Source: an uncultured Verrucomicrobiota bacterium (lineage in GTDB: Bacteria; Verrucomicrobiota; Verrucomicrobiia; Opitutales; Opitutaceae). From it: 33,690 nt of DNA. The translations under genes were made by a program, and so were the position numbers. The DNA is taken from positions 1 to 33,690 of the forward strand of contig CAJCBL010000090.1 of the NCBI GenBank assembly GCA_903960515.1. The letters are read 5' to 3'. Shown in pieces: positions 3,160-27,776 of the stretch. The first letter of the stretch is position 1, and each line of letters begins with the position of its first letter. The notes under the pieces were generated by a model that saw nothing but the letters and a program-made list of their open reading frames with translations, was not told the DNA's origin and searched no databases.

Positions 3160-3496
3160 GCCGGTTTTTCACGCAGCCCCTCCAGTGGGCCTGTTGAGGC
3201 CGTACCGCCGCTACGGTGGACCCAGAAGGGAAGTCAGAAAACTTAGACGAAGTGGTTCATCTGGGTATCGGGCCTTGAGTGCGTACAGGTTTGATCGCAG
3301 ACGGTGCGTCGGCAAACGACGACCTTATCCCCTAGAAGGGACAGGTCGGATCCCATAGAAGGGACAGGTCGGAAATTTTAGACTCATCCCGCGCCCTGAG
3401 TCGGTTTTCACGCAGCCCCTCCTGTGGGGCCCGTTGAGGCCGTACCGCACCTACGGTGGCCCCCTCATCAGAAGGGACAGGTCGGAAATTTTAGAC
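3144..3496. repeat. Duplicated tatP 3' end plus four short repeats upstream of the RAYT gene
   Basis: An 80-bp segment at 3144-3223, covering the last codons and stop of tatP, recurs with a few changes at 3384-3463. Both copies contain a short GC hairpin of the form GCCC(C)...(G)GGGC. Each is followed by a copy of a 27-nt motif with core GGGACAGGTCGGAAATTTTA. The motif stands at 3357-3383 and 3470-3496 in full, at 3334-3350 truncated, and at 3224-3248 degenerate. No open frame of interest lies between the copies. The layout suggests tandem duplication or repeated insertion linked to the adjacent transposase, with the motif acting as that element's left flank. This mechanism is inference. Confidence 0.8.
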
Positions 3497-3527: not shown

Positions 3528-4511
3528 ATGAGGCTGGGGCGTATCAAGGTTTCGCCTGAGGAGGGGCCGGCAGCTTACCACTGCATGACGCGCGTGGTCG
3601 CGGGGGAGAAGCTCATCGACGATCCGGCCAAGGAAATCTTGCGACGTCAGCTCTGGCTAGTGGCTGAGTTTTGCGGGGTCGAAATCCTCACCTACGCAAT
3701 CCTCAGCAACCACTTCCACATACTGGTGCGCGTGCCGCAGAAGATTGCCCCATCGAATACGGAATTGCTGCGCCGCTACCGCCTGCTCCATCCCAAGCCG
3801 ACCAAGTACCAGCAGGCGCGCATCGAGGTGATCGAGGCGCAGTTGGCGGCCGGCGGTCCCGAGGGCGAGGCGTGGCGGAGGCGCCAACTCGCGCTCATGG
3901 GCGATGTCTCCAACTTCATGAAACTGTTGAAGCAGCGTTTCGCCATCTGGTTCAACAAGGCACACCGCCGCTACGGCACTCTCTTTGCCGAACGCTTCAA
4001 GTCCGTGCTGGTGGAGTGCGCAGGCAATGCCTTGCGTACGATGGCCTTCTACATCGACCTCAATCCCGTGCGCGCCGGACTGGTCACCGATCCCAAGGAC
4101 TATCGCTTCTGCGGCTACGGCGAGGCCGTCGCCGGCCATGCCGCCGCCCGGGCCGGCCTCTGCCAGGTGCACGCCGTGAAATGGCAACAAGCCCACGCCG
4201 CCCATCGTATCGGCCTGTTTGGCACCGGTTCGGCCCCTCGCCTTGCCGGCTCAACCATCGCCCCGGCCGCCTTCCAAAAGGTGCTGCGACAAAAGGGCCA
4301 ACTTCCTCTCTCCTCGGTGCTGCGTTGCCGGGTACGATACTTCACCGACTCGGCTGTGCTCGGTTCGCAGGCCTTTGTCGCCCTGCATCTGGCTGCGTAT
4401 CGTCGCCGCTATGGCGCCCGCCAGCGCAGCGCCCCGCGTCCGCTCCTGCCCATCACCGATTGGGGCGGACTCACAGTCCTGCGCGCCCTGCGCCAGAGCC
4501 CCTTCGGGTAG
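3528..4511 (+). CDS. IS200-like Y1 transposase / RAYT
   Basis: The 327-residue protein belongs to the Y1 HUH transposase superfamily. The HUH metal-binding motif is at residues 62-64 in LSNHFHILVRVP, and the FYIDLNPVRAGLV block containing Y175, a candidate catalytic tyrosine, is the usual RAYT signature. RAYTs are single-copy domesticated relatives of IS200/IS605 transposases that act on single-stranded hairpin DNA and are tied to REP elements. This one exceeds the usual RAYT length (often 150-250 residues) through a C-terminal region of about 125 residues with a basic YRRRYGARQR stretch. It is preceded by repeated GGGACAGGTCGG motifs; I found no matching copy downstream before the IS630 insertion. 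The ATG at 3528 has no ribosome site. Confidence 0.85.
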   Translation: MRLGRIKVSPEEGPAAYHCMTRVVAGEKLIDDPAKEILRRQLWLVAEFCGVEILTYAILSNHFHILVRVPQKIAPSNTELLRRYRLLHPKPTKYQQARIEVIEAQLAAGGPEGEAWRRRQLALMGDVSNFMKLLKQRFAIWFNKAHRRYGTLFAERFKSVLVECAGNALRTMAFYIDLNPVRAGLVTDPKDYRFCGYGEAVAGHAAARAGLCQVHAVKWQQAHAAHRIGLFGTGSAPRLAGSTIAPAAFQKVLRQKGQLPLSSVLRCRVRYFTDSAVLGSQAFVALHLAAYRRRYGARQRSAPRPLLPITDWGGLTVLRALRQSPFG

Positions 4512-4716: not shown

Positions 4717-5220
4717 ATGCGCCCACCCAAAGACTTCCCCGCAGGAACAGCACAGCGCATGCAGGTTTTGCTACGGCAGGCCAAGACTGTCAGCGACCAG
4801 CGACGCATTCAGGTGGTATTGATGCGAGCATTGGATGGGTTACCCCCGGTGCGCATCGCCGCGCTGACCGGCTTAAGCGTCCATACCGTGAGAGTCATCC
4901 ACTCTCGTTTCCTTCGGGAGGGGGAAGCGTGGCTGACAGGCCGACCGGGGCGCGGTGGGCGGCGGCGCACCTTGCTTAGCGAAGCCCAGGCGAGTGCACT
5001 GCTTGCACGCCACGCGCTGGCCGCAGGCCAAGGGCAAGTGGTGGAGGCCGGGCAATTCAAACGCGACTACGAGAGCACAGTCGGCCACAAGGTCGCCGCA
5101 TCCACTGTTTACCGTCTATTGGCCAGAGCGGGATGGCGCAAGGTCGTGCCCCGGCCCAGCCACCCCCAAAAGGATCCTGTCGCGGAAGCAGCTTTAAAGA
5201 AAACTTCGCAGCGCGGGTAG
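4717..5220 (+). CDS. IS630 transposase, first frame (DNA-binding half)
   Basis: The 167-residue frame begins MRPPKDFPAG and carries two helix-turn-helix-like regions: DGLPPVRIAALTGLSVHTVR (about residues 40-60) and the winged part near KVAASTVYRLLARAGW, followed by the linker PRPSHPQKDP. In IS630 transposases this N-terminal half binds the terminal repeats. It lacks catalytic residues and ends at 5220. The next frame overlaps it from 5133 in the -1 register. A slippery heptamer at 5193-5199 would join residue 161 of this frame to ENFAARVAAI, giving a 352-residue protein of normal family length and without an alignment break. The short product could also be made and act as an inhibitor, as in other frameshifting IS families. 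Confidence 0.88.
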   Translation: MRPPKDFPAGTAQRMQVLLRQAKTVSDQRRIQVVLMRALDGLPPVRIAALTGLSVHTVRVIHSRFLREGEAWLTGRPGRGGRRRTLLSEAQASALLARHALAAGQGQVVEAGQFKRDYESTVGHKVAASTVYRLLARAGWRKVVPRPSHPQKDPVAEAALKKTSQRG

Positions 5221-5774
5221 CCGCTATCCACAGCCAGCACAGTCGGGCGCCAGTGGTGGTGTTCATGGATGAGGGGCGTTTCGGGCGTATCAGCCAGTTG
5301 GCCGCTTGCTGGGCGCCCATGCCCGTGCGGCCCAAAGTGCCACGGCAAATCGTGCGCGAGTCGCTTTACGCCTTTGCTGCGGTAGTCCCTGCGCCGGGCA
5401 AGTTGGTCTATCGCCTGTCGGCCAAGTGCAATACAGAGGCGATGTCCTTGTTCCTGCTCGATGTACTGGAGGCGTGGCCCGATTCGCCGGTGCTTCTGGT
5501 TCTCGACGGTGCCGGCTGGCACAAGGCCCGCACTCTGCCCGTGCCCGACCGGCTAATACTGATGCACCTGCCCCCTTACTGCCCCGAGTGCAATCCGACC
5601 GAACACATCTGGGACGAAGTTCGAGAAAAAGGATTCGCCAACCACCTCTTCGCCACCCTTGAGGCAGTCCAAGTTCGACTAATTATCCAACTTGAAGAAC
5701 TCGCCGCAGACACGCCGCGCCTGCGCGGCCTCACTCATTTTTCATGGCTTAGCCCGAAGTTATTATACGTTTGA
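5133..5774 (+). CDS. IS630 transposase, second frame (DDE catalytic half)
   Basis: This frame carries the RNase H-like catalytic core. The three acidic residues can be placed as D185 (VVFMDEGRFG), D264 (LVLDGAGWHKA) and E296 (ECNPTEHIWDE), numbered in the frameshifted 352-residue product. The LPPYCPECNPTEHIW block is diagnostic of IS630. The in-frame ATG at 5133 lies inside the first gene and is probably not the real start; translation most likely enters by -1 slippage at 5193-5199. The reading frame ends at 5774, inside the right terminal repeat. All catalytic motifs are intact. Confidence 0.88.
   Translation: MAQGRAPAQPPPKGSCRGSSFKENFAARVAAIHSQHSRAPVVVFMDEGRFGRISQLAACWAPMPVRPKVPRQIVRESLYAFAAVVPAPGKLVYRLSAKCNTEAMSLFLLDVLEAWPDSPVLLVLDGAGWHKARTLPVPDRLILMHLPPYCPECNPTEHIWDEVREKGFANHLFATLEAVQVRLIIQLEELAADTPRLRGLTHFSWLSPKLLYV
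5193..5199 (+). promoter_or_regulatory. Probable programmed -1 ribosomal frameshift heptamer
   Basis: The zero frame reads GCT TTA AAG, so the heptamer T TTA AAG has the X XXY YYZ form needed for simultaneous slippage to TTT AAA. Slippage joins the two transposase frames at a point where the fused sequence stays family-like (ALK-ENFAARV). The zero-frame stop TAG follows at 5218. I did not identify a clear stimulatory stem-loop by eye. Confidence 0.72.
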
Positions 5775-9059: not shown

Positions 9060-9091
9060 CTTCACTCCCTCACTCCTTTACTCCCTTCACA
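9060..9091. repeat. 8-bp-period tandem tract overlapping the mnmA stop
   Basis: Four units of 8 bp (CTTCACTC, CCTCACTC, CTTTACTC, CCTTCACA) run into the end of mnmA, whose stop is at 9087-9089. The tract resembles the 7-bp-period tracts elsewhere in the window but has a different period. Confidence 0.65.
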
Positions 9092-10367
9092 CATACACTC
9101 CGCCGCCGAGCAGCCGCTCGCCGTCGTGGAGGGCGAGGATCTGCCCGGGGGCGAGACCGCGTTGCGGTTCGCGGAAGGTGATAAGCGCGGTGCCGTTGGG
9201 CTGCGGCTCGAAGCGCAGGGCGACCCGCGGATCGCGGTAGCGTACCCGGCCCTCCAGATCGGCAGCAGTCGTGATGGGTTCTCCGATCCAACTGAGTGCA
9301 TGCACCTGCACGGTGGTGGTATGCAGCCCGGGGGCCTGCGGCTCATCAAAGGCGACCAGGAGCGCGTGGTCGCCGGCGCGCTTGCCGACTACGACATAGG
9401 CCTTGTTTTCGGTGTTGGAGGGAATGCCGATGCCCTTGCGCTGGCCGAGGGTGAAAAGGTGGAGACCGCGATGCTCGCCAAGTATTCTACCATCGGTGGC
9501 ACGGATGATCGGGCCGGGGGCGTCGGGCACATAGGCGCGCAGGAAGTCCTGCATGCGCACCTGGCCGATGAAGCAGATGCCCTGGCTGTCCTTCTTGGCG
9601 GAATTGGGCAGGCCGGCGGCGGCTGCCAGCGAGCGGACCTCGGGTTTGGTAAGCTCGCCCAGCGGGAAGCGTGCGGCGGCGAGTTGTTCCTGCGCGAGGA
9701 GGGACAGAAAGTAGGATTGGTCCTTGTTCTTGTCGGCTCCCTCGTGGAGTTGGAAATTGCGGACTGCGGATTGAGGAGTGCGGATTGGTCCGGAGAAGTC
9801 CTGCGGACTGTGGGCTGAAGGCTGAAGGCTGAAAGCGGATGACTGAGGGCCGTGGACTGTAGACGGTGGACTGTGGCCGGCGCCAACGGTGGTCGCTACG
9901 GATGGTCCGCACGCAAGGTCTGCCTCTGCCTCAGGCGCTGCGGCGAAAGCGCTTCCGCTACAGGGAAGAGCAGGCGTGAATTCGATGCGTCGGGCGTAAT
10001 GGCCGGTGGCGACGGCGTCGAAACCGTGGTCGCGGGCCCATTGGAGGAACACTCCGAACTTGATCTCGCGGTTGCACATCACGTCGGGATTGGGCGTGAG
10101 GCCGCGGCGGTAGCCGTCGAGCAGGTAGTCGACGATACGCGACCGATACTCGTGCATGAGGTTGACGACGCGAAACTCGATCCCGAGGCGCTCGGCGCTG
10201 GCGCGGGCATCGTCGATGTCCTGCTGCCAAGGGCATTCGCCTACGAGGTTGTCCTCGTTGATCCAGTTTTTCATGTACGCGCCCACGAGTTCGTGGCCGG
10301 CGCGCTGTTCGAGCAGGGCGGCCACGGAGCTGTCGACTCCTCCGGACATGGCGACGAGGACGCGCAT
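9087..10367 (-). CDS. mnmA: tRNA-specific 2-thiouridylase MnmA with a large internal insertion
   Basis: MnmA uses ATP and a persulfide donor to thiolate U34 of tRNA Lys, Glu and Gln in the cytoplasm. The PP-loop SGGVDSS is at residues 8-14, the catalytic cysteines are C98 ([13 protein letters not shown]) and C265 (SQGICFIGQ), and the [10 protein letters not shown] motif starts at residue 212. The protein is 426 residues against roughly 360-370 in E. coli. The excess lies between [11 protein letters not shown] (ending near 130) and [10 protein letters not shown] (near 208), where the family normally has a dozen residues. The insert at about 9744-9978 consists of a 7-bp repeat tract and a REP-like palindrome, read in frame as Ser/Pro/Gln-rich sequence. 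All catalytic parts are intact, so it is probably functional. The ATG at 10367 starts at [10 protein letters not shown] and is preceded by a perfect 12-bp palindrome (10371-10382) but no ribosome site. Confidence 0.95.
9756..9876. repeat. Heptamer tandem tract inside mnmA
   Basis: Two blocks keep an exact 7-bp period. The first, from 9756, uses units such as ATTGCGG and ACTGCGG. The second, 9800-9876, has eleven consecutive units such as CCTGCGG, ACTGTGG, GCTGAAG and ACTGTAG. The blocks are offset by 2 bp. The reading frame of mnmA stays open through the whole tract and encodes about residues 165-204. Confidence 0.9.
9941..9961. repeat. REP-like palindrome with GTAG foot inside mnmA
   Basis: On the minus strand it reads GTAG followed by a near-perfect 16-bp palindrome centred on AAGCGCTT (GCG G AAGCGCTT T CGC). 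It lies in the same insertion as the heptamer tract and is read in frame. Confidence 0.6.
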
Positions 10368-10755
10368 GGTGTGTGCGCACACGCTGGAAACGCCCCGCCG
10401 CGAGTCCAGCGCCGAAGCGCTGCTGGCTCTCGGCGCGAGGGGAAAGCGCCGCGGCGAATCCCGGTCTTTTGGCTCGGGCGTCCTCGGTGCGCGGAGTCGG
10501 TCCGGTCCGGACGCGAGGTGCGCCCCTACAATCGGACTGCATGGCCAACGCCTGCGCGGACACCGGCGAGCTCCGCGGTCTGGCGAAGGTGGTTACGCAG
10601 TGCGGCGCCGCCGGCGTATGAAGCGGGGGGCGCAGGATAGTCGGAAAGACAAGAGCAGGATGGCTGAGGCTGGTATTGGATCAGCGGAGGGCGGGGTACG
10701 CCCGCCAGGAAATTTCTGTTGAGCGAGACGCGCCGGGCGGAAAGCATCGGCCCAC
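10368..10755. other. 388-bp divergent spacer between mnmA and the pullulanase gene
   Basis: The spacer starts with the palindrome GTGTGCGCACAC (10371-10382) just upstream of mnmA. It contains a REP-like half-site with foot GTAGG at 10513-10529, whose flank is shared with 7281-7297, and a GGCGGGG/GCCCGCC hairpin near 10688-10705. It must contain promoters for both flanking genes, but I cannot place them with confidence. No gene is seen. Confidence 0.55.
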
Positions 10756-13197
10756 ATGAGCTCGCGCCGCACGCCGATCGCCCAAGCTTGGTTGGAAACT
10801 CCGGACTCGGGAGTGATCGAACTTACCCGCGACTGGTTTGGCAAAGCGCCGCCGCCCATCTTCCTCGGTGCCCCGCCGCGCCCATTCCGTGTGCTGCGGC
10901 CGATCCCCGGGGTGTTCTTCGCTGAGGAGAGCGGTTTTTTCGTGAGCAACCGTCAGGAAATCTGGTTTCTGCTGGAGGCGGAGCGTTACCCGTGGCTGAA
11001 AGCGAAAACCACCCAGATCTATGTGGCCGGCGACTTCAATGGTTGGAGCCACGCCGTGGGGCGAGCGGAGTGGGAGCTGAAGCTGGAGGATTTCGGCGGG
11101 CAGCAGGTATTCATTCTGCGAAAACCGGCGGGCAGTTTCTTGGCGCAGGCCCACCAGAGGTTCAAATTCGTGACCGGCGAACAACATTGGCTCGATGTGC
11201 CGTTTACGGCGCCCAACGCGGTGCGCGACGAGTCGGGGAACTCCAATTACTCGATCGACCCCGATCGCACCGGTCAGCATCGCTTCTTCTTCGAGACGGT
11301 GGCCCCGCTGGAGCTTTCGGAGAACATCGTGGTGCTCTGGAGCGACGTGGATGGTGAGCAGAAAGTGCCGCTGCGCCCCGACGGGTTCTTCTTCAAGATC
11401 CACTCCAACGCCGAGTTGGGTGCGCTTGTGGAGGAGGAGGAGACGGTGTTCCGGCTGTTCGCTCCGCGGGCGCGGCGGGTACGCTTGAAATTGCAGCAGG
11501 AGCTGGAGCCGGTGGAGGAGCCTACGGTTTTCCCTTTGGCGCGCACGAAGGACGGAGTGTGGGAGGTGCGGCTCAACCGCAATCTGCACGGCTGGTTCTA
11601 CTGGTTTGTGGTCGAGGGGCCGGCCAACGCCTTCGGGCATTTCGACCGGCAGTTCCAGCTGGTCGACCCATACGCGAAGGCCGTGGTGGGCCGGCTGGGA
11701 CCGGGTGTGGTGTTGGCCGATACTGCATTCCCCCCTCCCAAAGTCCCCTTCAGCACGCCGCAGTGGCAGGATCTGGTCATCGCCGAGGCGCATGTCCGGG
11801 ATTTGGTGGCGCAGGCACCGCTGCCCTTGAGCGCAGAGGAGCGCCACGGGTTCGCCGGGCTCACGCAATGGGTGAGCAGTCCCGATTTCTACCTCAAGCG
11901 GCTCGGGGTGAACGCGGTGGAGCTGCAGCCGGTGCAGGAGTTCGACAATCGCACCACCGGGGAATACCACTGGGGCTACATGCCGGTGAACTGGTTCGCG
12001 CCCTCCAGCGCCTATGCCAGCAATCCGGCGAAGGCCTCCCAAGTGGCCGAGTTTCGCGACTTGGTGGACGCCTTCCATAGGCAGGGAATCGCGGTGATTT
12101 TGGATGTGGTTTACAACCACCAGGGCGAGCCCTCGCACCTGATGTTTGTAGACAAGCACTACTACTTCGAGGATGGCCGCGACGGCTCGCTCACCAACTG
12201 GAGCGGTTGCGGCAACGACTTTCGCGCCTCCTCGGCGATGGCGCTGCGCCTGATCATCGACAGTTGTGCGCATCTGATCCGCGCCTACGGCGTGGACGGC
12301 TTCCGCTTCGACCTGGCCGAGCTCATCGGCCTGGAGCCGCTCAAGCGCATCGAGACGGCGCTCAAGAAGGTGAAGCCCGACGTGATCCTCATCGCCGAGC
12401 CGTGGAGTTTCCGCGGGCATCTGGCCGGAGCACTGGCCGAAACCGGCTGGACGTCGTGGAACGACGGCTACCGCAAGTTCCTCCCCTCCTACGTGCGCGG
12501 CGAGGGGGCGAGGGAGGGCTTCGAGTATTTCCTCAAGGGCTCGCCGTGGTACTTCGCCAAGTGGCCGGCTCAGACGGTCAACTACACCGAGTCCCACGAC
12601 GACCGCACGTGGATGGATGTGATCACCGAGAACGCCGACGGCAACGGCCACAACCCCACCGCCAACGACCGGCGCCGCACCCACCTGATGTGCGCCGTGC
12701 TCATGAGCTCCGTGGGTATCCCGATGTTGGCGGCAGGACAGGATTTCCTGCGCGCCAAGCAGGGAGTGACCAACACTTACCTGCGCGGCGATCTCAACGC
12801 GCTGGAATACCGCCGTATCTTCCGTTTCCCGACCACGTTCCGCTACTTTGCCGACTGGATCCGCTTCCGCAGGTCGGAGCGCGGGCGCCTGCTGCGGCTG
12901 TTCACCCGCCCCAGCGAGGAGTTCTTCCAGTTCTCCTTCGCGCGCGACTGCACTGCAGCGGCGGTGGTCTACAACGCCGATCTCTCGCAGGGGAGTTCGC
13001 GGCTGCTGCTCGCCTTCAACCCGCACCTACACGAGGTGGCGATTCCAGTGAGCACCTTCCCCAAGGCGCAGTGGCGGCAGGTGGCCAACCACGAGCATTT
13101 TCTGGCGAGCCACGACTACGAGCCCGCGTTGCCTCTCGACGGCGAGCTCTACCTGCCCCCGCTCGGCTGCGCGATGTGGGAGGCCGATGGGGAGTAG
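10756..13197 (+). CDS. GH13 alpha-glucan debranching enzyme (pullulanase/isoamylase type)
   Basis: The 813-residue protein cleaves alpha-1,6 branches in glycogen, starch or pullulan by family. N-terminal beta domains include TTQIYVAGDFNGW (about residues 92-104), the signature of carbohydrate-binding module 48. The YHWGYMP motif at 404-410 corresponds to the YNWGY signature of type I pullulanases. Catalytic GH13 motifs follow: D450 in VILDVVYNH, nucleophile D519 in GVDGFRFDLAE, acid/base E548 in ILIAEPW, and the third acid D615 in YTESHDD. No signal peptide is present, so the enzyme is probably cytoplasmic and works in glycogen turnover. The start MSSRRTPIAQAWLE has no ribosome site. The gene stands alone, followed by heptamer and REP repeats and then the glycolytic genes. 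Pullulanase versus isoamylase specificity cannot be settled by reading. Confidence 0.88.
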   Translation: MSSRRTPIAQAWLETPDSGVIELTRDWFGKAPPPIFLGAPPRPFRVLRPIPGVFFAEESGFFVSNRQEIWFLLEAERYPWLKAKTTQIYVAGDFNGWSHAVGRAEWELKLEDFGGQQVFILRKPAGSFLAQAHQRFKFVTGEQHWLDVPFTAPNAVRDESGNSNYSIDPDRTGQHRFFFETVAPLELSENIVVLWSDVDGEQKVPLRPDGFFFKIHSNAELGALVEEEETVFRLFAPRARRVRLKLQQELEPVEEPTVFPLARTKDGVWEVRLNRNLHGWFYWFVVEGPANAFGHFDRQFQLVDPYAKAVVGRLGPGVVLADTAFPPPKVPFSTPQWQDLVIAEAHVRDLVAQAPLPLSAEERHGFAGLTQWVSSPDFYLKRLGVNAVELQPVQEFDNRTTGEYHWGYMPVNWFAPSSAYASNPAKASQVAEFRDLVDAFHRQGIAVILDVVYNHQGEPSHLMFVDKHYYFEDGRDGSLTNWSGCGNDFRASSAMALRLIIDSCAHLIRAYGVDGFRFDLAELIGLEPLKRIETALKKVKPDVILIAEPWSFRGHLAGALAETGWTSWNDGYRKFLPSYVRGEGAREGFEYFLKGSPWYFAKWPAQTVNYTESHDDRTWMDVITENADGNGHNPTANDRRRTHLMCAVLMSSVGIPMLAAGQDFLRAKQGVTNTYLRGDLNALEYRRIFRFPTTFRYFADWIRFRRSERGRLLRLFTRPSEEFFQFSFARDCTAAAVVYNADLSQGSSRLLLAFNPHLHEVAIPVSTFPKAQWRQVANHEHFLASHDYEPALPLDGELYLPPLGCAMWEADGE

Positions 13198-13203
13198 GCC
13201 GGC

Positions 13204-13252
13204 GATTTCGGATTTCCGATTTTTGATTGCCGATTTGCGATTGGCAATTGGC
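13204..13252. repeat. Heptamer tract after the pullulanase gene
   Basis: Seven consecutive 7-bp units follow the stop codon within 10 bp: GATTTCG, GATTTCC, GATTTTT, GATTGCC, GATTTGC, GATTGGC, AATTGGC. The consensus GATTNNC is the rotated GGAYTGC unit found inside mnmA and metH. Confidence 0.9.
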
Positions 13253-13626: not shown

Positions 13627-14691
<1,065 letters not shown>

Positions 14692-14715: not shown

Positions 14716-14889
14716 GAAGGCAGAAGGCAGAATGCAGAAGGTCCGATCTCGGGCCTCTGCATCGGTCTTCTGCCTTCTTTGTATCTGAGTTCTGTACTCT
14801 GCATTCAGTTCAGCATTCTACATTCTGCGTTCAGACTTCTTCCTAGGTCCGCCGTCTACCCGCTCCCCGCTACTCGCTACTCACTACTT
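14716..14889. repeat. Heptamer arrays in the gap-pgk spacer, in inverted orientation
   Basis: The left array, 14716-14743, has units GAAGGCA, GAAGGCA, GAATGCA, GAAGGTC. The right array, 14784-14844, has TCTGAGT, TCTGTAC, TCTGCAT, a shortened unit, TCAGCAT, TCTACAT, TCTGCGT, TCAGACT. The right array read in reverse is the same repeat type as the left. The decamer GAAGGCAGAA also has an exact inverse, TTCTGCCTTC, at 14768-14777, so the transcript can fold into a long hairpin. A third array, 14858-14885 (ACCCGCT, CCCCGCT, ACTCGCT, ACTCACT), runs to within 12 bp of the pgk start, leaving no room for a normal ribosome site. Confidence 0.88.
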
Positions 14890-23771: not shown

Positions 23772-24052
23772 GCTCGGCGGGCTGTTTACCAGCCTGAGCG
23801 GAAGCACTGAATTGGGGGCGAAGGGCGCAGGTTTCTCGCCCTTCGGAACACGGTTCGCGCGCCTCACGCCTCGTACCCGAGGTACCGAGCCAGCCACTTT
23901 TCGATTTCGGAGACGGGGCGGGCGCTGCGGGCGGCGTAGTCTTCGACTTGGTCGCGGGCGAGTTTGCCCACGGCGAAGTACTTCGAGTCGGGGTGGTTGA
24001 AGTAGAAGCCGCTCACGCTGCTGGCAGGCTTCATCGCGCAACTCTCGGTGAG
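23772..24052. repeat. Direct repeat copy 1: metH 3' end plus downstream flank
   Basis: About 280 bp repeat the region 24872-25149 in the same orientation. The metH-coding part (23864-24052) is about 93 percent identical by my count, and the flank (23772-23863) is more diverged. The second toxin-antitoxin pair lies between the two copies. Confidence 0.88.
23864..24052 (-). pseudogene. Orphan 3' fragment of metH (last 62 codons)
   Basis: The minus strand encodes the end of the methionine synthase activation domain, in frame to its own stop: [15 protein letters not shown], then [16 protein letters not shown], then [14 protein letters not shown]. It has no start and breaks off abruptly at 24052 where the match to the intact gene ends. 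Changes from the intact copy are mostly synonymous or conservative (I to V, V to I, G to S), which suggests divergence as part of a working gene before it was stranded here. It is not expected to make a product. Confidence 0.88.
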
Positions 24053-24855: not shown

Positions 24856-24960
24856 CACTGGAAATAGTGGCCCCGGCGGGGTGTTTGCCTGCCGGAGCGG
24901 AATTACGGAGAGGCGGGGAATGGCGCAGGTTTTTCGCCCTCCCGAATACGATCCCTACCC

Positions 24961-27720
<2,760 letters not shown>

Positions 27721-27734
27721 GGTGGGAGGGAAAG

Positions 27735-27776
27735 GCTGAATGCTGAAGGCGGAATGCGGAAGGTAGAAGAGAGCGG
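27735..27776. repeat. Heptamer tract in the leader of the cobalamin-half metH
   Basis: Six units, GCTGAAT, GCTGAAG, GCGGAAT, GCGGAAG, GTAGAAG and AGAGCGG, lie 15 bp upstream of the metH ATG on the minus strand. Confidence 0.88.

Follow-up and report, generated by a model that had tools for sequence, protein, structure and literature searches.

The window, by which the whole analysed stretch of 33,690 nucleotides is meant, carries on its minus strand the gene of a tRNA-modifying enzyme, mnmA, with repetitive DNA in the middle of its frame. The gene, the insert with its two parts and the predicted structural elements around it are the following:

9087..10382, minus strand: mnmA, tRNA 2-thiouridine(34) synthase, 431 residues from a GTG start, assigned by a profile match
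9741..9977, minus strand: repeat-derived insert, T135-E213, 79 aa, directly after GHYARRIEF
9938..9963, minus strand: REP-like palindromic piece GTAGCGGAAGCGCTTTCGCCGC, a 15-nt palindrome with 80% complementarity
9748..9873, minus strand: degenerate heptamer tract, CAnTCnn/TTCAGCC units on the coding strand
9978..9995, minus strand: hairpin strand 1, residues 129-134 (DSSP of the model)
9741..9758, minus strand: hairpin strand 2, residues 208-213 (DSSP of the model)
9771..9947, minus strand: predicted disordered tip, residues 145-203 (pLDDT below 50 in 145-194 and 196-203, residue 195 excepted)

The GTG-started frame has an alternative ATG start (MRVLV) 15 nt further inside, and the residue numbers of the insert refer to the 430-residue mnmA frame counted from position 10379. 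The ORF scored above the cut-offs of two profiles, in each case in two stretches: NF001138 with 374.9 bits (cut-off 284; best stretch 207-428) and TIGR00420 with 353.4 bits (cut-off 236.95). The alignment to solved MnmAs covered residues 5-130 and 211-428 of the window protein, leaving out the loop. The PP-loop SGGVDS (12-17), D99, C102 and C269 were invariant in all 48 aligned MnmAs, the last three being the counterparts of the catalytic residues Asp99, Cys102 and Cys199 of the E. coli enzyme, as given in PMC11784392. This confirmed the first-pass annotation, made from the letters alone, in which the catalytic cysteines and the PP-loop had been described as intact. Judging from the conserved residues and from the structure model, the repeats appear not to have broken MnmA.

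In the coding-strand order the REP-like piece comes first and the heptamer tract last, both being read in frame. Between GHYAR and D.NKDQSY the window MnmA has 85 residues, compared to 14-17 in short-loop relatives. The insertion in the middle of MnmA claimed earlier is real, with its size and place mended from some 78 residues at 9744-9978 to 79 residues at 9741-9977. The mean pLDDT of the MnmA model was 85.2, the low-confidence insert being embedded in an otherwise confident fold. The model matched the MnmA structure 2hma over 350 residues (Z 44.7, rmsd 1.7) and the tRNA complex 2det over 353 residues (Z 44.6, rmsd 1.6), while the best non-MnmA rows of the structure comparison were at Z of about 14. 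The model shows the insert as a predicted disordered extension on the tip of an MnmA beta-hairpin.

Heptamers and palindromes in the host genome

The mnmA tract had a phased-heptamer score of 44, which was reached in none of 500 codon shuffles of that loop, so that the first reading of this part as a heptamer tract translated in frame stands; its longest perfect run comprises three units of TTCAGCC. Within the 5.5-Mb genome, a 4-unit heptamer pattern gave 81 matches (9 with the reversed control) and a 3-unit CANTC pattern 157 (0 with the control). The window together with 37 regions around 4-unit pattern matches elsewhere in the genome contained 63 tracts. According to the codon model, 11 of these were intragenic with CAnTC on the sense strand, none was intragenic in the opposite orientation, 18 were located ahead of a sense gene, 31 were classed as 'other' and 3 were left unclassed. 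Two tracts counted among the 11 intragenic ones (L162 and L172) resemble leaders on inspection, and the other nine belong to seven genes, i.e., mnmA, metH, a NuoG-like gene, a U5-methyltransferase gene (three tracts) and three more. Of these three, one encodes a pyridine nucleotide-disulphide oxidoreductase, another a DEAD_2 helicase, and the third a membrane-protein-like product without a Pfam match. Stop codons alone are insufficient as a cause of the one-sided orientation of the intragenic tracts in this genome, and the opposite orientation is present in other genomes. A stop-free unit was considered as a special trait and rejected: the canonical CAnTCCG reads without a stop on either strand, which is true of 8264 of the 16384 heptamers.

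The second gene of the window with such DNA is metH, where three places were recorded:

26782..26835, minus strand: heptamer tract inside metH, in frame, of the same class as the mnmA tract
25825..25875, minus strand: second heptamer-like insert inside metH, seen by eye and missed by the tract caller
27732..27763, minus strand: heptamer-like tract in the metH leader, directly 5' of MTRSASS, the likely start

Downstream of metH, a 278-bp stretch (23775-24052) is 87% identical to the metH 3' end (24874-25149), representing a partial duplication. Heptamer arrays of CGATTTC and GAAGGCA are located at 13203-13242 and 14716-14741, each closely following a gene (10756-13197 and 13645-14691, respectively). 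Elsewhere in the genome, the U5-methyltransferase-like gene (L168:2122-3759, minus strand) has three separate heptamer inserts, two of which, by eye, read as minus-arm and then plus-arm peptides (for example, GIRNADS ... PHSALGTPRSS).

A sense start was present within 15 nt after the tract in 12 of the 63 cases (11 ATG and one GTG within the NuoG-like gene) and on the antisense side in none of the 63; as 678 of 7600 random positions have such a start, chance would give about 6 in 63. Eleven of the 63 tracts end 3-12 nt ahead of an ATG opening a sense coding frame, with none on the antisense side; start-adjacent tracts of this genome were found in L162, L163, L169, L170, L175, L176, L184, L186 and L195. 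By analogy with the TAACTGA heptamers (PMC4679880), lying ahead of starts may be the main role of the heptamer tracts.

The REP-like half is the weaker part of the repeat assignment than the heptamer half. A 14-mer from one half of the palindromic piece, AGCGCTTCCGCTAC (9948-9961 on the plus strand), has 15 copies in the genome (control 0), and seven other copies viewed in context were palindromic by eye. With up to three mismatches, a 22-mer of the piece was found twice in the genome, itself included, and a BLAST search of the genome with the 110-nt REP-like half gave, besides itself, 17 weak matches with E values from 0.08 to 0.98. The piece starts with GTAGCGGAAGCG and its 15-nt arms have 80% complementarity; GTAG REPs are defined by a GTAG at one end of a palindrome of 20-40 bp. 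Of the earlier claim, the presence of a REP-like palindrome read in frame in the loop was upheld, while the element turned out to be a decayed copy rather than a clean one. The piece was also considered as a REPIN and rejected, the best inverted pair in the window loop having 7 bp and no inverted partner.

No copies of AGCGCTTCCGCTAC were present in the 44 kb around the genome's 17 Y1_Tnp matches, where a transposase link of the REP-like half was looked for. One of these 17 is in the window, an IS200-like gene at 3528-4511 on the plus strand, with two copies of a 23-bp repeat upstream of it (3327-3373). Overlapping HTH and DDE_3 frames at 4717-5774 on the plus strand look like a split transposase, presumably of the IS630 type, which such a pair resembles.

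The hairpin tip in related MnmAs

The loop set consisted of 150 loci, of which 110 were MnmA loci and 40 were picked for a long-looking MnmA, so the set is enriched for long loops. A loop was obtained from 147 of them (none from L201, L222 and L227), leaving 129 distinct ones after removal of 18 duplicates. Aligned to a short-loop MnmA, 66 of the 126 distinct proteins that could be obtained from this long-loop-enriched set had an insert of at least 8 residues at the tip. A hairpin of the C-terminal barrel was the site of an insert in 12 of the 126, seven of which also had one at the main tip, and six inserts at other sites all came from four rows of a Patescibacteria clade. This clade comprises six rows, three assigned by name and three by tree placement.

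In the family survey, 145 of 150 genomes were matched and 132 were scored (106 with a full-length or nearly full-length MnmA and 26 whose match is interrupted at the loop), the scoring leaving out 13 partial or unlisted genomes. Over the whole protein, MnmA was lengthened by at least 8 residues in 61 of the 132, mostly at the tip; since their loops are short, G006, G429 and G509 must be lengthened elsewhere (at least 3 of the 61). The loops of two congeners have 60 and 62 residues by the measure that gives 85 in the window, and both bear heptamer tracts, preceded upstream by differing sequence. The idea of the insert as a one-off had to be given up, as every one of the three sampled genus members has the heptamer tract and the loop has been hit recurrently. 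Orthologues sharing a conserved insert without a repeat period, which would have made it an old domain, were also looked for and not seen, some other family members having 14-17 residues at the site and others unrelated repeats.

At a strict threshold, heptamer loops were found in 12 of the 126 rows: three of this genus, three of genus g2, L017, L032, L034, L200, and L056 and L058, the latter two belonging to Verrucomicrobiales. These exclude L049, which passed the threshold and was removed by hand as a C-rich run, and L038, L093, L103 and L207, with scores of 14-16. When the loop was left out of the tree, the 12 rows corresponded to 8 label changes, at least 5 of them forced by starred branches, such changes not separating gain from loss. 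The loops of L017, L032, L034, L200 and L203 read, by eye, as minus-strand heptamers followed by plus-strand ones, similar to inverted pairs. Long loops without a repeat class made up 46 of the 126 rows, a few of them being weaker heptamer candidates.

Heptamers also occupy the tip in the Patescibacteria clade (L103, score 16, reached in 0 of 500 shuffles). The L110 loop has matches to two further tracts within its locus (E values of 3e-9 and 4e-8; six loci searched), the second of them further along the same MnmA gene, and fails the heptamer unit model, its score being reached in 187 of 500 shuffles. Four MnmAs of this clade (L102, L104, L105 and L109) have a common loop element with an inner palindrome, the arms of which differ and yet pair (TCCGCC/GGCGGA, TCCACC/GGTGGA); it is either a repeat or a conserved RNA structure.

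Other loops are filled by REP doublets. A perfect 29-bp inverted pair was present in the L197 loop, and inverted pairs 25-29 bp long, mismatched at 2 or 3 positions, in those of L044, L225, L214, L226 and L037. At least three REP families found in the loops are genomic repeats, with 5 to 97 matches per carrier genome. The doublet from the G458 loop gave at least 97 matches in G458, 32 in G440, 2 in G018 and 0 in G000, G019 and G036, and that from the G318 loop gave 20 in G318, at least 64 in G428, 12 in G016, at least 44 in G200 and 0 in G000 and G019, with 40 candidate places scored in G458, G428 and G200; as a palindrome can match in both orientations, the elements are fewer than the matches for both doublets. 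The GTAGGGCGGGACC... REP had 11 matches in G001, 37 in G389, 45 in G373 and 5 in G426, compared with 0 in G000, 1 in G002, 3 in G019, 4 in G036 and 0 in G029, the reversed control being 0 throughout. Upstream of its heptamers, the G001 loop consists of a REP that was matched 11 times in G001, once in G002 and not at all in G000.

The genomes with heptamer loops (n = 10) were richer in heptamers than 13 hand-chosen others (p = 0.002; 0.0009 after subtraction of the control). Many heptamers also occurred in genomes without a heptamer loop (41, 50 and 32 matches in G004, G432 and G008, with controls of 13, 13 and 60, respectively), and G431, which has such a loop, gave 123 matches with a control of 102; the link between heptamers in the loop and in the genome is a loose one. 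Altogether, the classable loop inserts match repeats of their own host genome, and unrelated repeats have repeatedly landed on the MnmA hairpin tip in separate lineages.

Origin of the insert and its precedents

Most probably, repeats of the host genome, namely the heptamer tract and the decayed REP-like piece, became fixed in frame at a solvent-facing hairpin tip and are translated as a disordered passenger. This reading proceeds from the observed repeat make-up, frame, intact catalytic residues, hairpin position and recurrence in relatives and from the predicted disorder. The repeats would spread through the genome by their own means, reaching the whole gene at some rate; insertions breaking the frame or the core of the fold would be purged, while those in frame at the presumably solvent-exposed tip would survive as an unstructured tether. 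Survival would occur mainly here and, to a lesser extent, at a tip in the C-terminal barrel, and the enzyme would keep working with a segment that probably has no use. With passive retention at the tip, the loop would sample whichever repeat is common in its genome. The preference for one tip could instead reflect an insertion bias or selection for the insert. Two observations count against the passive account: all 11 intragenic tracts are on the CAnTC strand with 0 on the other, and 46 of the 126 rows have long loops without a repeat class.

Use of the translated repeats by the enzyme is improbable. The disordered tip would in this case tune the binding of tRNA or of a sulfur carrier, or 7-nt changes would switch the frame upstream of Cys269, resulting in phase-variable U34 thiolation. 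That repeats were fixed time and again at one tip, in separate lineages and two phyla, favors such a role, as does the length of the unit, whose copy number cannot shift by one without a frameshift; phase variation through heptamer number is reportedly known for Haemophilus HMW1A. However, the units are degenerate and the longest perfect run is three, which should make slippage rare; by eye, loops from different lineages have no common residues beyond those of the repeats, and REP doublets fill the tip as well as heptamers do. The scatter of REPs over unrelated proteins was also taken as an argument against functional constraint by the authors of PMC3733652. Similarly improbable is the broader proposal that the tip is more than tolerant and that the repeats act on the enzyme, for instance as a slippage switch 5' of Cys269, which would make wobble-uridine thiolation and codon reading heritably variable and would have arisen convergently in Verrucomicrobiota and Patescibacteria.

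An old structured MnmA domain, whose repeat appearance would be a coincidence of composition, is very improbable: many family members have long loops (61 of 132 scored genomes), but the heptamer score was not reached in any of 500 codon shuffles, the pLDDT of the insert is below 50, and relatives have 14-17 residues or unrelated repeats at the site. There is equally little to recommend an assembly or binning error in this draft metagenome genome, since, although the window makes up an entire contig of an assembly with 379 contigs and repeats provoke misassembly, heptamer-bearing inserts occur at the same place in the separate assemblies of two congeners, the same tip bears a REP doublet in G318, a single-contig genome, and heptamers in G433, on a contig of 2.7 Mb, and the mnmA frame is open throughout.

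The preferred reading, a translated passenger derived from host repeats, has precedents of several kinds. PMC3733652 describes palindromic repeats in frame within real genes, dimers or groups of which encode 20-30 residues, the GTAG kind being mostly from Opitutus terrae, where the GTAG-20 end motif is mostly GTGG; truB and truA, both for tRNA modification, are among the REP-hit genes in other species. The GTGGAGCG doublets in the loops described here likewise end with GTGG, a likeness limited to the end motif. According to the same paper, genes of the same category were hit at different sites, except for recB of two Xanthomonas, in contrast to the many lineages using one tip here. The Rickettsia palindromic elements, mentioned there as in-frame inserts in many genes, including truB, that likely encode functional proteins, are similar in the in-frame mode of insertion only, the host being different. 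REPINs, described in PMC3116915 as extragenic inverted REP doublets, are comparable with the loops of L044, L196, L197, L214, L225 and L226, which are inverted doublets of families with many genome matches; unlike REPINs, the loop doublets are coding, and the window's own piece is single and decayed.

The TAACTGA heptamers, as presented in PMC4679880, are often located just 5' of start codons, with some inside ORFs in the stop-free orientation and there mostly outside the parts with an assigned function. The repeats described here share the seven-nucleotide unit and the location of some of them within ORFs, and the 12 of 63 tracts closely followed by a sense start may point to a similar placement ahead of starts; in contrast to the fixed TAACTGA, the unit is a degenerate CAnTCnn/TTCAGCC and is internal to conserved enzymes. 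In view of the in-frame REPs of PMC3733652 and the ORF heptamers of PMC4679880, the kind of event is already known. The main text of PMC3733652 mentions neither MnmA or TrmU nor the word heptamer, and none of the matches listed in our literature searches dealt with MnmA loops as repeat sites or with Opitutaceae heptamers. Within the literature searched, the heptamer class in Opitutaceae and the reuse of one loop by unrelated repeats are, therefore, new.

The in-frame repeats described earlier are distributed among many proteins, whereas here, in separate lineages, unrelated repeats have come to fill the same short loop of one conserved enzyme. What was an anecdote thereby becomes a natural experiment with replicates, showing where repetitive DNA can be fixed as protein, and the choice between tolerance and use becomes testable in a single assayable enzyme.
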